This document shows positions 56,838 through 62,992 of a stretch of DNA of 64,000 nucleotides, one piece after another. Position 1 is the stretch's first letter; every line of letters begins with the position of its first letter. The position numbers and the translations under genes were made by a program. Source of the stretch: Brevibacterium sp. S22 (GTDB lineage: Bacteria > Actinomycetota > Actinomycetes > Actinomycetales > Brevibacteriaceae); NCBI RefSeq assembly GCF_004745485.1, contig NZ_RHFG01000009.1, positions 1 through 64,000 on the forward strand, written 5' to 3'. The notes under the pieces were generated by a model. It did no database searches. It was not told where the DNA came from and saw only the letters and a program-made list of their open reading frames with translations.

Positions 56838-57422
56838 TCAGTCCTCGTGGCTGGGGAAACGGAGGAAGGGTGTTTCCTCCTCACCCTGCAACCGTATGTC
56901 GAAGTGCAGCGATCCGTCAGCCCCTCGAGTCGCGACGAGGCGGGCGCGCTCGTCTTCATCGAGCGAGGACAGGAGCGGGTCGGCGGCCAGCGCCTCGGTG
57001 TCCTCGGGCAGGTAGATGCGGGTGAAGAGGCGGTTGAGCAGCCCGCGGGCGAAGATGACGAGGCTGATGAATGGGGCCTTGCCTGCCTCGGTGGGGCCGG
57101 GGTTGACCGTCGAGAAGCTGAACTCGCCTTCGGGGTCGACGGCTGCGCGGCCGAATCCGGTGAAGGTGAAGCCGTTGCGGAGCAGCGAACCCGTCTTCCG
57201 GGGAACCTCGCCGTTCTCATCGGGCTGCCAGATCTCGAGGATCGCATCGGGGACGCGCTCGCCCGCCCCGTCATAGACGGTTCCGGTCAGCTGCACCGCC
57301 CGCGCCGAACCGGGCGGCACGAGCTCATTGTCGTGCTCGTAGGGCATTGCGTAGCCGTAGAAGGGTCCGACGGTCTGCCCCGGCGTGGGGGTGAGGTCGG
57401 TGGTCGGGGTGGTCTCAGTCAT
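56838..57422 (-). CDS. pcaG: Protocatechuate 3,4-dioxygenase alpha subunit
   Basis: 194-residue intradiol dioxygenase alpha chain. It has the TPGQTVGPFYGYAMPY start, VQLTGTVYDGAGERVPDAILEIWQPDENG and GKAPFISLVIFARGLL, matching PcaG. Alpha chains lack the full iron ligand set, which is in PcaH. The ATG at 57422 overlaps the end of pcaH by 8 bases, so the two subunits are translationally coupled. Together they cleave protocatechuate to 3-carboxy-cis,cis-muconate. Confidence 0.94.
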   Translation of the reverse strand: MTETTPTTDLTPTPGQTVGPFYGYAMPYEHDNELVPPGSARAVQLTGTVYDGAGERVPDAILEIWQPDENGEVPRKTGSLLRNGFTFTGFGRAAVDPEGEFSFSTVNPGPTEAGKAPFISLVIFARGLLNRLFTRIYLPEDTEALAADPLLSSLDEDERARLVATRGADGSLHFDIRLQGEEETPFLRFPSHED

Positions 57423-58275
57423 CGTCCTCTTCTTCCATCCAGGTCCGGTTGGCTCCGGTGAGCACGATGTCCCAGTTATAGCCCATGAGGAATTCGTGTT
57501 CGGTGATGTTGTGGTCATAGGTGGCCACCAGCCGGTCGCGCGCTTTCTGGTCGGTGATCGACTGGTAGATCGGGTCGAGAGCGAAGAGCGGATCGCCGGG
57601 GAAGTACATCTGCGTGATCATCCGCTGTGTGAACTCGGATCCGAAGAGCGAGAAGTGGATATGGGCCGGTCGCCATGCGTTGTGGTGGTTCTTCCACGGG
57701 TAGGGGCCCGGCTTGATCGTCGTGAATGAGTAGGACCCGTCGTCGCCGGTCAGGGTACGGCCGACACCGGTGAAGTTCGGGTCGATCGGGGCCGGGTGCT
57801 GGTCGCGTTTGTGGATATAGCGTCCTGCCGAGTTCGCCTGCCAGATCTCGACGAGCTGGCCCCGCACGGGACGACCTTCACCGTCGAGGACCCGGCCGGT
57901 GACGCGGATGCGCTCGCCGATGGGTTCGCCGTCGGCCTGGATGGTCAGATCGGATTCGAGGGTGCCGATGTCCCGGTGCCCGAAGGCGGGGGAGAAGAGC
58001 TCGATCGTCTCTGGGTCGGTGTGGCGCGGATCCTTCGTCGGGTGCCGCAGGATCGAGGACCGGTAGGGCCGGTAGTCCAGGCGCGGCTGGGTCTCGGGCT
58101 TCTTGCCGCCGGCGACGTCCTGCTTGTACTGCGTTTCGATGCTCTCGATCTCCGCCGACAGCGTCGCCTGTGACTCGGCTGCGTCGTCGGGGCCCTTCAC
58201 GGGCTGATCGATGACGGTCGGGGAGGTGAATGCCTCGGCGGACTCGTCAACGTCCGAGTTCTGCTGTGGACTCAT
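57415..58275 (-). CDS. pcaH: Protocatechuate 3,4-dioxygenase beta subunit
   Basis: 286-residue catalytic beta chain with a long N-terminal region. Fe(III) ligands are seen as the Tyr in KPGPYPWKNHHNAWRPAHIH and the two His of HIH in RPAHIHFSLFG; a second Tyr (GRYIHKRDQHP or nearby) lies upstream. The core RVTGRVLDGEGRPVRGQLVEIWQ is the intradiol signature. It forms the holoenzyme with PcaG. Located upstream of pcaG (overlapping) and 55 bases downstream of pobA. Confidence 0.95.
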   Translation of the reverse strand: MSPQQNSDVDESAEAFTSPTVIDQPVKGPDDAAESQATLSAEIESIETQYKQDVAGGKKPETQPRLDYRPYRSSILRHPTKDPRHTDPETIELFSPAFGHRDIGTLESDLTIQADGEPIGERIRVTGRVLDGEGRPVRGQLVEIWQANSAGRYIHKRDQHPAPIDPNFTGVGRTLTGDDGSYSFTTIKPGPYPWKNHHNAWRPAHIHFSLFGSEFTQRMITQMYFPGDPLFALDPIYQSITDQKARDRLVATYDHNITEHEFLMGYNWDIVLTGANRTWMEEEDDD

Positions 58276-58330
58276 CGTCGAACCTTTCTCTCTTCGGTGC
58301 TCATGTTCGTGGGGAGGGTGGGGGAGCGGC

Positions 58331-59515
58331 TCAGCCGTGGGGCCAGCCGGTGTAGCACTCGGCCAGGTAGCGGCGACCGTGGTCGGATTCGAGGATGGAC
58401 CGCAGTTCGCCGAGGCTGCGCTTCGTTTCGAAGGCGTCCTGAGTCGGGTCGGTGTGGAGCATCCGTGTCATCTGGTACGAGAAGTTCTGGGCCTTCCATA
58501 CACGCTTGGTCGCGGTCTGCGAATACCCGGCGAGCGCCTCGGCGTCGGAGTCCTTGAACGCCGTGATGAGAGCGGGGGCGAGCACGGCGACATCGGCGAA
58601 GGCGAGGTTGAGGCCTTTTGCGCCGGTCGGTGGGACCGTGTGGGCGCTGTCGCCGGCGAGGAACATCGACCCGTGCTGCATCGGCTCGGTTACGGCCGAA
58701 CGGAACGGCAGCACGGTCTTGTCGAAAATCGGACCGGTCTTGAGTTCGAAGCCGTCGGGGCCTGCGACGCGGGCCTGGAGCTCGGTCCAGATCCGGTCAT
58801 CGGACCAGTCGGCCACATCGGCGTCGGGGGAGGCCTGGAAGTACATGCGCTGGACGTTCGCGCTGCGTTGGGAGATGAGGGCGAAGCCGCGTTCGGAGCG
58901 GGAGTAGATGAGGACCTCGTGGCTGGGCGGGGCTTCGCAGAGGATGCCGAACCAGGCGAACGGATATTCGTGGAAGAAGCGCTGCCGGGTGCCGTCGGGA
59001 ATCATCGAGCGGCAGGGGCCGCGCGAGCCGTCGGCCCCGACGACGTAGCGGGCGCTGATGCGCAGCTCTTCACCGTCGGCAGAGGTGGCGGTGACCCAGG
59101 GGGCCTCGGTTTCGATATCGCCGAGGCGGGTGTCCGTGACCGAGTAGTAGGTGGGGCGGCCCGTGCGTTCACGGGCGGCGGCGAGGTCGACGAAGATCTC
59201 GTTCTGGGGGTAGAGCCACACGGATTCGCCGACGAGTTCGGGGAAGTCGAAGTGGTTCGAGGCGCCGTTGACTCGAATGTCGATGCCGTCGTGGCGGTGA
59301 CCGTCGATGTGGACGCGGGATTCGACGCCTGCAGCTTCGAGCATGCGCACCGATCCTGCTTCGAGGATTCCGGCGCGGTGTGTGTGGGCGATGTCGTCGC
59401 GGCTGCGGTTGTCGATGACGACGGATTCGATGCCTGCATTGTGCAGCAGGTGCGCGAGCATGAGTCCCGCGGGTCCGGCTCCGACGATCGCCACGTCTGT
59501 CTTCAGTTGTGCCAC
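58331..59515 (-). CDS. pobA: 4-hydroxybenzoate 3-monooxygenase
   Basis: 394-residue FAD/NAD(P)H aromatic hydroxylase converting 4-hydroxybenzoate to protocatechuate. It has the FAD motif VGAGPAGLMLAHLL at the N-terminus, the DG motif region YVVGADGSRGPCR, and GDSAHTVPPTGAKGLNLAFADV near residue 285, all PobA hallmarks. The GTG at 59515 with GGAGG 5 bases upstream is the likely start. Length equals the Pseudomonas enzyme. First gene of the pob-pca operon. Confidence 0.95.
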   Translation of the reverse strand: MAQLKTDVAIVGAGPAGLMLAHLLHNAGIESVVIDNRSRDDIAHTHRAGILEAGSVRMLEAAGVESRVHIDGHRHDGIDIRVNGASNHFDFPELVGESVWLYPQNEIFVDLAAARERTGRPTYYSVTDTRLGDIETEAPWVTATSADGEELRISARYVVGADGSRGPCRSMIPDGTRQRFFHEYPFAWFGILCEAPPSHEVLIYSRSERGFALISQRSANVQRMYFQASPDADVADWSDDRIWTELQARVAGPDGFELKTGPIFDKTVLPFRSAVTEPMQHGSMFLAGDSAHTVPPTGAKGLNLAFADVAVLAPALITAFKDSDAEALAGYSQTATKRVWKAQNFSYQMTRMLHTDPTQDAFETKRSLGELRSILESDHGRRYLAECYTGWPHG

Positions 59516-59674
59516 CTTGGCCTCCTTGCCGTATCTCGTCTCATCAGTGTGCGCCCAGTCACTGAGCCGAAGCGATGGCATTCTCAATGAATAAGAAGTC
59601 GGGCCGAGGGTGGGTGGAGTCCGGCGGCGCGGCTCACCGTGCGAACTCCGTTCAAAGTTACTTTTCGATAACAG

Positions 59675-59790: not shown

Positions 59791-60393
59791 GTGACCGCTT
59801 CCAAGACCCGCTCCCGCAAGTTCAAAGCCATTCTCGCCGGCGGCATCGTCCTCGGTGTCGGCGCGGCAGTGACCCTCGCTGCCTGGACCGACGACGAATG
59901 GGCCGAAGGTGTCTTCGGCGCCGGTTCGTTCAACGTGGAGGGCAGCACCGACGGCTCGAGCTTCACTGATCACGAGAGCGCAGACGGAGCGGCCTCACTG
60001 GACTTCCAGGTCGGCGCGGACAACCTGTCTCCCGGTGACACCGCCGCTGCTCCCTTCGTTCTCCGCCTTGATGACGCGACGAGCTACGACGCTACGGTGG
60101 CGCTCACCTCGGCGGCGGGGTCAGGCGACAACACGGGCGCACTGAGCTACGAGATCGTTCAGGTCGCCTCGGCGGGAGACTGCTCGGCCACCGCCACGGG
60201 TACTTCGATCGTTGACGCCGGCACCGCGCTGAACTCGACGGGCGGCGCTGCGGACTTCGACCTCACCGCGGGTTCGGGCAGCACTGCGGGAGCTCCGGTG
60301 ACGCTGTGCTTCAAGGTCACCGCGGGTGATGATCTCGAGCAGGGTCAGAACACCATGGCGCAGTGGCAGTTCACCGCAACCTCGGCCGAATGA
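59791..60393 (+). CDS. SipW-type signal peptide protein (TasA/camelysin-like), 1
   Basis: 200-residue secreted protein. The N-terminus is RKFKAILAGGIVLGVGAA, ending in AAWTDDEWAEG, the hallmark of substrates of SipW-type signal peptidases. The mature chain is rich in Ala, Gly, Ser, Thr and Asp with few charges and no Lys after the signal, and ends NTMAQWQFTATSAE; beta-rich fibre-type domains (TasA-like) have this look. GTG start with AAGGAG upstream. First gene of a four-gene operon with a second similar protein and the signal peptidase. Fibre or matrix function is inferred. Confidence 0.83.
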   Translation: MTASKTRSRKFKAILAGGIVLGVGAAVTLAAWTDDEWAEGVFGAGSFNVEGSTDGSSFTDHESADGAASLDFQVGADNLSPGDTAAAPFVLRLDDATSYDATVALTSAAGSGDNTGALSYEIVQVASAGDCSATATGTSIVDAGTALNSTGGAADFDLTAGSGSTAGAPVTLCFKVTAGDDLEQGQNTMAQWQFTATSAE

Positions 60394-60410
60394 CGACGCT
60401 GAACTGATCG

Positions 60411-61109
60411 ATGCACCTTTCCTCGTTGCGGCTGCGGAATCTCTTCTCAGGCGGGCGGGCACCGTCGAGTGACCGCCCGCTGAGTCGACGGCAGATGCGA
60501 CAGCGGCGTCGGCTGCGCAATCGACGTATCAAAGCGATTCTCGCCGGTGGGCTGGTTTTCGGTGTGGGCGCGACGGCGACGGTCGCGGCGTGGACGGATA
60601 CGGAAGAGGCCTCCGGCTCGTTCGAAGCCGGGAGGTTCAATATCGAACTGTCTGTCGACGGGTCGGACTGGACGAACACCAGCACGATGACCTTCGACGC
60701 AGGCAGCATGTATCCGGGGCAGAAGGTCTATGCCCCGGTGTTCGTCCGGACTACGTCGACCACGTCGATCGGCGGCGAGGTCACCGTGTCGGGCGGCGGA
60801 ATACAGAATCCGAACGCCTTTGCCTCTGCGCTCACCTATCGAGCTGTGGCGCGGACTTCGTCCGGTACCGGGTGTGATGCGAACAGTTTCCCCGGTCCGG
60901 GCACCGTCATCTTCGGTGAGGACGGCGGGGTCGCCCTGAGCAGCAGACCGACTGCGGCGGCAAGTCAGGAACTTGAGTCTGCGGGTGCTGCCGTTCAGGC
61001 CTACTGCTTCGAGGTGACGCTGCCGACGAACGCGCCGAACGAGGCTCAGGGACTGTCGACGTCTCACACCTGGACCTTCACCGCCGAATCCACGACTCCA
61101 GGATCGTGA
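60411..61109 (+). CDS. SipW-type signal peptide protein, 2
   Basis: 232-residue secreted protein with a long, very basic N-terminus (RRQMRQRRRLRNRRIKAIL), then AGGLVFGVGATATVAAWTDTEEASGSFEAG, again the SipW signal pattern. The mature portion has two Cys (GCDANSFP and YCFEVTLP) and ends with SHTWTFTAESTTPGS, similar in layout to the first protein, so the two are paralogues. It follows the first gene by 17 bases and precedes the signal peptidase by 3. The basic start may aid targeting. Confidence 0.82.
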   Translation: MHLSSLRLRNLFSGGRAPSSDRPLSRRQMRQRRRLRNRRIKAILAGGLVFGVGATATVAAWTDTEEASGSFEAGRFNIELSVDGSDWTNTSTMTFDAGSMYPGQKVYAPVFVRTTSTTSIGGEVTVSGGGIQNPNAFASALTYRAVARTSSGTGCDANSFPGPGTVIFGEDGGVALSSRPTAAASQELESAGAAVQAYCFEVTLPTNAPNEAQGLSTSHTWTFTAESTTPGS

Positions 61110-61112
61110 ACG

Positions 61113-62495
61113 ATGAGCCGTAGTTCATCGAACGGGTCGGGCATCGGTGCCTGGCTGGGTGCTGCCCTGCTCAATGTGCTCGCCGTTCTCGGCGTGGTGT
61201 GCATCGTCCTCGTCATCCTCGGTGTGGTCTTCAATGTCTCAATCATGATGTTCAAGACCGGATCGATGAGTCCGACGATTCCGGCGGGTTCGGCCGCTCT
61301 CGTTCGGGAGATCCCTGCCGAGGACATGAAGGTCGGCGACATCGTCACCGTCGACCGCGGAGACAAGGTTCTGCCGGTGACGCACCGCGTCATCGACATC
61401 CAAACGACCGACCCTTCCACCGGTGCCGTGACCTTCGACATGAAGGGTGACGCGAACGCGGAGAAGGACCCCGATCCTTACACCACGGAAACGGTGCGGA
61501 AGGTGATGTTCTCTGTCCCTGGAATCGCGCCGATCCTCCAGCAGTGGCGCAACCCGTTCCTGCTCGGCGGCATCACGATCGCGGCGAGCCTCCTCGTCGT
61601 GTGGGCGTTCTGGCCGCGCCGCGGCGATGATCTGGACGAGAGTGACGAGTCATCGGCAAACGCCGCACGTACCGAGGTTGATCGATTGCGAACTGCTGCG
61701 CGCTCGCCCAAGCATGCCGTGGCGGCTCCGATCATCGCCGCTATGTTGCTCGGCGGAGGAGTCGCAGGAGAAGATCTCGGAGTCGACACGACTGCCAGTG
61801 GAGGCGCGGGAGCTGCCTCGAACCAGTCCTCGTCGGAGGTTCACGGTCAGTATCTGCGTTTGAGGGCGTTCGGCGACGATAAAAGGATGCTCGGTCTCAG
61901 CCCGGGAGCATCGGCGAATTGGACCGTCGATGTGTGGGTCGAGGACGCTGATCCCGGCACGGTCGACCTCGAGATCGGTGCGGGGCAGGTGACTGAGCCG
62001 CTCGCCTCGGCGCTGGTCGTCGATGTGCGCAGCTGTGATCGGACCGCGATCGACGAAGGCTGTCCAGCGGGTTCACACAGCTTGCTGAGCGGGATGCCCT
62101 TGACCGACTTGGGGCGTGCGCCGGACGGAAACAGAGTCCTCGAAGAAATGCCGAGTGAAGACGAACGGCGCATCGATGTCACCGTCTCGCTGCTGCCCGA
62201 CGCCGATGTGAAGAAGGTCAACGGGCAAACGAGCAGTGTCCGGATCACCGCGCTGGGCCAGGGCGAGGAGCTCTCTGTGGGCCCAGGTGACCCTGGGCCA
62301 GGCGATCCGGGTGAAGCCGACGCCGGCTCCAACGGATCAGGCTCAGATGATCCTGGTGCGGAAGGGCCTGGCGGGTCGGGAGAACTGCCGTGGACCGGCA
62401 TCGACGGATGGCAGTGGTTCCTGCTGGCCGCGTTCGTGCTCATCGTTGTGGGATCGGCCGTGGTCTCGAGGACGCGGAGGGCGCGACAGTCATGA
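61113..62495 (+). CDS. ER-type (SipW-like) signal peptidase fused to an LPXTG-anchored ectodomain
   Basis: 460-residue protein. TM1 (about residues 16-46) precedes the peptidase core: nucleophile Ser51 in TGSMSPTIPAG, and His91 in VTHRVIDI in place of the Lys of bacterial SPase I, as in SipW/Sec11 enzymes; KGDANAEKD (about 111-119) supplies acidic residues. TM2 is about 149-168. A second part follows: an acidic/basic cytosolic linker, a third hydrophobic segment (about 203-220), an ectodomain (about 221-424) with two Cys, a Gly/Pro/Asp-rich linker, then LPWTG (425-429), a helix and the basic tail RTRRARQS, a sortase sorting signal. SipW enzymes are normally about 190 residues. It probably processes the flanking cargo proteins and attaches its own ectodomain to the wall. 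Confidence 0.82.
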   Translation: MSRSSSNGSGIGAWLGAALLNVLAVLGVVCIVLVILGVVFNVSIMMFKTGSMSPTIPAGSAALVREIPAEDMKVGDIVTVDRGDKVLPVTHRVIDIQTTDPSTGAVTFDMKGDANAEKDPDPYTTETVRKVMFSVPGIAPILQQWRNPFLLGGITIAASLLVVWAFWPRRGDDLDESDESSANAARTEVDRLRTAARSPKHAVAAPIIAAMLLGGGVAGEDLGVDTTASGGAGAASNQSSSEVHGQYLRLRAFGDDKRMLGLSPGASANWTVDVWVEDADPGTVDLEIGAGQVTEPLASALVVDVRSCDRTAIDEGCPAGSHSLLSGMPLTDLGRAPDGNRVLEEMPSEDERRIDVTVSLLPDADVKKVNGQTSSVRITALGQGEELSVGPGDPGPGDPGEADAGSNGSGSDDPGAEGPGGSGELPWTGIDGWQWFLLAAFVLIVVGSAVVSRTRRARQS

Positions 62496-62992
62496 CTCAT
62501 ATCTTCGTGTGGAAGCGAATCCGCGTCCTGCTCGCCATAGTCGCACTGTTGGCGCTCGTCCTCGTGCCTTCGGTGGTCAACGGGACCCTCGCCGGGTGGA
62601 ACGATGACAAATCGAGTACCGGGGAGTTCACCGCCGGGTCGCTCAATATCAGCAATCTGACATGTACGGACAACAGCGGTCTGCTCGGGCTCGGCGGGGA
62701 CCAGCTGAAACTGGATTGGACAAAGCCTGCGAACTCCGGGTCCACGCAGCTCCAATACACTGTCACAGTGGTAAGGACGCCATTGATCGGTTCGGCCGAG
62801 ACGACAACTCACATCACCGAGAGCACCACTTACACATATACCGACAAGCGTCTGACACTGGTTTCTCTGCCGCGGTACTCATTGACGGTCCAAGCGAACC
62901 CTGTAGGTGGTTGGACCGGGGCCGCCCAAACCGTGAACGGGCGCGGGGCGAATCTGCTGGGTATCGGATTGGTTCTGCGCTGCAGATCGTGA
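62492..62992 (+). CDS. SipW-type signal peptide protein, 3
   Basis: 166-residue secreted protein starting at ATG 62492, which overlaps the signal peptidase stop (ATGA). The signal is WKRIRVLLAIVALLALVL, with LAGWNDDKSSTGEFTAG around the cleavage region. The mature part has Thr-rich beta-type sequence (VTVVRTPLIG, TESTTYTYTD) and two Cys (LTCTDN and LRCRS). It is less similar to proteins 1 and 2 than they are to each other, and lacks an LPXTG motif, so it may be a minor fibre subunit or tip. Confidence 0.8.
   Translation: MTHIFVWKRIRVLLAIVALLALVLVPSVVNGTLAGWNDDKSSTGEFTAGSLNISNLTCTDNSGLLGLGGDQLKLDWTKPANSGSTQLQYTVTVVRTPLIGSAETTTHITESTTYTYTDKRLTLVSLPRYSLTVQANPVGGWTGAAQTVNGRGANLLGIGLVLRCRS

Follow-up and report, generated by a model that had tools for sequence, protein, structure and literature searches.

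The window analysed here is a stretch of 64,000 nucleotides from contig NZ_RHFG01000009.1 of Brevibacterium sp. S22, whose genome of 4.5 Mb is distributed over 72 contigs. It contains four closely packed genes, named A to D in the following, which are listed together with their features in Table 1. The gaps A-B, B-C, and C-D comprise 17, 3, and -4 bases; the ATG of D overlaps the stop codon of C. The start codon of A is a GTG, located downstream of an AGGAG site, which is kept in most Brevibacterium relatives. A first-pass annotation of this DNA had described three proteins with SipW-type signals grouped tightly around a dedicated peptidase; its coordinates and spacings are correct. An upstream alignment of relatives, in which a shared regulatory motif was sought, contained nothing that stands out beyond the ribosome-binding site. 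A scan of the locus for promoters and terminators detected no promoter; the single terminator-like site lies on the opposite strand and is within chance.

Table 1. Positions of genes and features of the operon within the 64,000-nucleotide window
Feature	Position	Strand	Remarks
Gene A, 200 aa	59791-60393	+	SipW-type substrate, predicted TasA-like fibre subunit
Predicted mature N-terminal donor strand of A, residues 31-44	59881-59922	+	Begins Ala-Trp; largely low-confidence in monomer model
Gene B, 232 aa	60411-61109	+	Second SipW-type substrate, same family as A
Gene C, 460 aa	61113-62495	+	SipW-type signal peptidase fused to wall-sorted module ANC
Peptidase module of C, residues 24-172	61182-61628	+	Ser51 (61263), His91 (61383), 2 membrane segments
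Internal hydrophobic segment of C, about residues 202-222	61716-61778	+	Equivalent to N-terminal Sec signal of free ANC proteins
ANC ectodomain of C, residues 237-392	61821-62288	+	Predicted beta-sandwich, AlphaFold2 pLDDT 83
Wall-sorting signal of C	62385-62492	+	LPWTG (425-429), hydrophobic stretch, basic tail RTRRAR
Gene D, 166 aa	62492-62992	+	SipW-type signal and donor-like strand, Ig/fn3-like domain, TapA-like layout

The nearest named relatives of C are found in Brevibacterium species, among them B. oceani with 80% identity over C, and full-length homologues of C occur in about half of the sampled genomes of the same genus. Because the same four-gene block was found again in other Brevibacterium species, the operon is more than a chance arrangement. 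In B. celere (L051:7396-7980) and in a Brevibacterium metagenome bin (L053:7381-7965), D is inverted and convergent with C. Beside the operon lies an aromatic catabolism cluster (56838-59587, minus strand) encoding two dioxygenase-like proteins and a flavin monooxygenase-like protein; the monooxygenase gene is near the operon in several relatives, too.

Export signals and the dedicated peptidase

The SipW-type signal model TIGR04088, which has a cut-off of 19 bits, matches A with 35.7 bits and B with 36.4 bits, whereas D reaches only 14.8 bits. Among relatives, it is matched by 50 of 54 A/B proteins and, at E 0.1, by 8 of 28 D proteins. Of the three SipW-type signals proposed by the first-pass annotation, those of A and B thus lie above the cut-off of the model; that of D lies below it and is supported by a profile match to A/B, which is described further below. 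The peptidase module of C is matched over residues 24-139 by TIGR02228, the model of SipW/ER-type (archaeal-type) signal peptidases, with 63.7 bits (cut-off 51.85). Ser51 and His91 are invariant in 20 relatives and constitute a Ser-His pair instead of the Ser-Lys pair of ordinary signal peptidase I. The second TIGR02228 match of the genome is an ordinary signal peptidase I with a Lys-Arg motif and was discarded. Since A and B exceed the cut-off of TIGR04088 and C that of TIGR02228, the pairing of signal and peptidase is, as judged by these profile matches, already catalogued by NCBI models. Note that the two models describe signal and enzyme only; the ANC module, protein D, and the operon lie outside them.

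The residue equivalent to P2' of TasA is a tryptophan in 54 of 54 A/B relatives and a tryptophan or phenylalanine in 28 of 28 D relatives. In TasA, P2' is a phenylalanine, and LepB of E. coli cleaves substrates with an aromatic P2' residue poorly; much of the TasA cleavage block has been ascribed to the tryptophan at P2 (PMC10269814). The aromatic P2' residues of A, B, and D, taken together with the poor cutting of such substrates by LepB, support the need for a dedicated enzyme. Processing of A, B, and D by the peptidase C is well supported and is the best-supported step of the mechanism proposed below.

Predicted fibre subunits and protein D

A and B belong to the same family (E 1.1e-23 for B in a phmmer search with A). 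The AlphaFold2 model of A (pLDDT 84.9) contains a confident beta-domain, which covers most of residues 45-200, and residues 21-40 are unstructured in this monomer model. A Foldseek comparison of the model with solved structures gave the TasA fibre 8aur as best match (E 2.9e-5), which was the only one below E 0.001; it was followed by donor-strand pilins, and an archaeal thread filament was also near the top. In a second-look structural alignment, the Z-values were 7.4 for the TasA fibre, 7.3 for an archaeal bundling pilus, and 7.2-8.5 for FimH/FmlH lectin domains. As these lectin domains are level with TasA, the fold match of A alone is not decisive.

The N-terminus adds a further line of evidence. 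In the TasA fibre, F29, I32, and F39 are the hydrophobic residues of the donor strand (PMC9674648). An ungapped alignment places W32, F42, and G45 of A on F29, F39, and G42 of TasA, and these positions are conserved in A/B proteins (Trp 54/54, Phe 46/54, Gly 48/54). Beyond this spacing, sequence homology of A/B to TasA is not significant: The TasA/camelysin models PF12389 and NF046066 did not match A and matched B with E 0.055, short of the cut-off; among the A/B relatives, 8 of 54 gave weak matches (best E 0.012). This is why a membership of A/B in the TasA family by sequence was dropped and the proteins are labelled TasA-like here. When the profiles of A/B, ANC, and D were compared with the sequences of the PDB, only chance-level matches resulted, such as fluorescent proteins and antibody chains. 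The predicted fold and the strand spacing make it probable that A and B form a TasA-like surface fibre by donor-strand assembly. The earlier proposal of a TasA/SipW-like operon in an actinobacterium is in agreement with these findings, as the predicted fold of A matches the TasA fibre best and the spacing of the donor strand in A, B, and D is that of TasA.

Two cysteines of A, C131 (60181-60183) and C173 (60307-60309), are nearly invariant in A/B proteins. They may form a disulphide, which would stabilise the subunit; the TasA sequence used for comparison contains no cysteine.

Protein D had been regarded as a third cargo protein like A and B, a view which did not hold. The profiles of A/B and D match over 43 columns only (prob 96.6, E 4.8e-10), and these correspond to the signal and the first mature residues, that is, the N-terminal strand; nothing else is common to both. 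At the donor-strand spacing of TasA, D carries W36, F46, and G49. The rest of D shows a weak, sub-threshold resemblance to fn3/Ig domains (fn3 E 0.012). In TapA, an N-terminal strand similar to that of TasA is found on an already complete Ig fold (PMC10151520). On the profile level, the layout of D resembles that of TapA, as a related strand is joined to another domain, which is putatively Ig/fn3-like.

The wall-sorted module of C

Protein C consists of two modules. The C-terminal one, ANC, combines a hydrophobic segment and a predicted beta-sandwich with a linker rich in Pro and Gly and with a wall-sorting signal. In Agrococcus casei and several genomes of Microbacterium, ANC is encoded by a free gene and has a Sec-type signal of its own; in most cases, this gene shares 4 bases with the end of the peptidase gene. 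A signal-peptide cut site is recognisable in most of the free ANC proteins; the C protein of the window has no obvious one. In genome G088 and some others, ANC has another place in the operon, the gene order being A-B-ANC-D-peptidase. Of the 24 fused enzymes in a tree comprising 50 peptidases, 21 constitute one strongly supported group (100/99); the other three, of Leucobacter, G095, and Nesterenkonia, are placed outside it, and well-supported branches force at least two label changes. The first-pass annotation had stated that the peptidase brings its own LPXTG tether. The sorting signal is indeed present, but it terminates a separate sortase-substrate module, which is a free gene in relatives.

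Across the order (297 genomes), an A/B gene is present within 6 kb of 40 of the 47 ANC domains. Of the 45 genomes with ANC, 40 contain A/B proteins, which in the whole set are present in 63 of 297 (Fisher P 1e-27, odds ratio 80, without correction for kinship). At loci of Rhodococcus, Gordonia, and Lolliginicoccus that carry A/B and the peptidase, ANC was not detected. As ANC occurs free, fused, and relocated in relatives and co-occurs with A/B, the operon of the window is, judging from these gene arrangements, one version of a five-part system consisting of A, B, the peptidase, ANC, and D. Two Brevibacterium genomes (L043, L044) possess A, B, the peptidase, and D and lack ANC; their peptidases are placed with the ANC-less ones in the tree.

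The predicted fold of ANC comes closest to the N3 domains found in staphylococcal adhesins (FnBPA, Z 10.1); the TasA fibre is matched with Z 8.4 and E 5.4e-4. ANC thus resembles these adhesin domains more than TasA and may itself be an adhesin. Diphtheria-toxin structures in the same list (6-9% identity) were disregarded, because such matches are common for beta-sandwiches. A homology of ANC to A/B was dropped as evidence, because the profile match is weak (prob 30, E 5e-4). The SpaH/EbpB pilin model gave a weak match in six ANC members.

The LPXTG_anchor model TIGR01167 scored C with 16.6 bits in the genome search (cut-off 15.9) and with 11.4 bits in the protein scan. The LxxTG motif is invariant among 29 ANC relatives, and in many other Brevibacterium species the same protein carries LPRTG instead of LPWTG. 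As stated in the first-pass annotation, there is no sortase gene in the window: The genome contains a single match to the sortase family PF04203, which lies on another contig beside a trpG/pabA-type gene. Fifteen other proteins of this genome (G000; C14, C24, C63, and others) end in LPRTG; C is the only protein found with LPWTG in this one-sortase genome. The general sortase is the natural candidate for joining ANC to peptidoglycan at LPWTG, so that its absence from the window is no obstacle. Signal and sortase together support the sorting of ANC to the wall. Two roles fit such a protein, namely the base of a fibre or an independent adhesin; the fusion and the co-occurrence with A/B would favour the base.

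Proposed fibre, competing explanations and related systems

With a probability of roughly 0.55, we expect that A and B form a TasA-like donor-strand fibre, that D is its TapA-like starter or cap, and that the fibre is held on the wall via ANC. According to this model, A, B, and D would be exported by the Sec pathway, which is supported by their signals, and the SipW-type peptidase of C would cut before an Ala-Trp or Gly-Trp pair. The precedents of TasA and E. coli LepB suggest that an ordinary signal peptidase should cut these sites poorly. Each A or B subunit would then insert its freed N-terminal strand into the open groove of the next one, thus building up the fibre, as suggested by the fold and the strand spacing. 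As the same strand sits on an Ig-like domain of its own in D, this protein would start or cap the chain, like TapA of B. subtilis. The beta-domain of ANC would be joined to peptidoglycan by sortase at LPWTG, and it is likely the base holding the fibre on the cell. Due to the fusion, processing enzyme and base are part of one translation product. Of this model, the order of the genes, the signals, the catalytic residues, the fusion, and the existence of a sortase can be read from the sequence; the folds are predictions, and polymerisation, capping, and anchoring are inferred. A more specific version, which we put forward tentatively and somewhat below even odds, is a donor-strand fibre covalently linked to peptidoglycan, in which the single polypeptide of peptidase and base couples processing, fibre start, and anchoring at one membrane site. 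If this covalent link between fibre and wall is real, the operon would belong to a branch of the TasA kind that is linked by sortase and distributed among actinobacteria.

The most serious competitor accepts the TasA-like fibre of A and B but regards ANC as an independent wall adhesin, which merely shares operon and message, the fibre being held otherwise, as in Bacillus. The ligand-binding function of the N3 domains that ANC resembles most, and the Rhodococcus, Gordonia, and Lolliginicoccus loci without a detected ANC, are what one would expect in this case. On the other hand, ANC is almost never found without A/B, its fusion to the peptidase characterises one clade with strong support and is found in a few more lineages, and the TasA fibre is among its significant fold matches; we therefore rate an independent adhesin as unlikely, though deserving serious attention. 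Doubts may also concern the fibre itself: A and B might be adhesins or enzymes that are secreted to the surface or the matrix as monomers, require cutting in the SipW manner, and do not polymerise. The lack of TasA homology past the N-terminus and the lectin-like domains equalling TasA in the second-look alignment would agree with monomers. The conserved donor-strand spacing, the low confidence of the N-terminus in the monomer model, and the donor-strand pilins among the other leading Foldseek matches argue against them and render this explanation quite improbable.

Finally, the operon could encode a covalent, sortase-assembled pilus. SipA, a signal-peptidase-like protein, is an accessory of Streptococcus pili, and the peptidase of C could have a comparable role; the joint occurrence of sorting signal and signal peptidase, as well as the weak SpaH/EbpB matches of ANC, point in this direction. 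However, A and B are devoid of C-terminal sorting signals, the only sortase found is encoded outside the locus, and the peptidase retains its invariant serine and histidine. Such a pilus is thus very hard to reconcile with the data, and we give it hardly any weight.

The preferred reading, a wall-held TasA-like fibre, can be compared with several characterised systems. For archaeal bundling pili and thread filaments, we know of no involvement of a wall-sorting signal. Both (7ueg, 7pnb) are donor-strand-complemented fibres, and both are among the structural matches of A. The tapA-sipW-tasA operon of B. subtilis (PMC9674648, PMC10151520) likewise contains a dedicated SipW-type peptidase together with its substrates; the TasA fibre is the best fold match of A and has an equal N-terminal donor-strand spacing, and TapA, with a related strand on an Ig-like domain, may have a counterpart in D, whose domain match is sub-threshold. 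In contrast to B. subtilis, the operon studied here encodes two A-type subunits, whose beta-domains lack significant sequence homology to TasA, and its peptidase is fused to a sortase-substrate module, which is absent in Bacillus. The sipW-tasA-calY-capP locus of B. cereus resembles it in having two TasA-like subunits and a wall-associated helper, but has been described as sortase-independent, CapP being held at the wall by a disordered C-domain, whereas the wall partner found here has a sorting signal (PMC13082335). The sipW-bsaABCRSD operon of C. perfringens also combines a SipW peptidase with a secreted polymer-forming matrix protein and accessory secreted proteins; it differs by a two-component system in the operon and by a neighbouring sortase that did not matter when tested, whereas in Brevibacterium a sortase substrate is part of the operon (PMC7395162).

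The attachment of TasA-type fibres to cells is poorly understood (PMC9674648, PMC13082335, PMC7395162): In B. subtilis, TapA is only thought to anchor them (PMC9674648), and the systems of B. cereus and C. perfringens were described or tested as sortase-independent (PMC13082335, PMC7395162). The conserved fusion points to a candidate for the wall anchor and links it with the processing enzyme, so that fibre attachment can be tested directly in Brevibacterium. The full-text literature searched, which covered few subscription papers, contained no description of SipW/TasA-like operons of actinobacteria, and in the searchable literature we found no description of a peptidase fused to a wall-sorted module or partnered by a sortase substrate. 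The system would be of clear interest if wall attachment were shown.

Additional genes of this kind were observed in two relatives. B. aurantiacum XU54 (L086) contains a second SipW locus, which is highly divergent and has an A/B pair of its own; ANC was not detected there. In Nesterenkonia alba (L082), two SipW-type peptidases, one of them fused to ANC, are encoded back to back and surrounded by at least seven A/B-like substrates.
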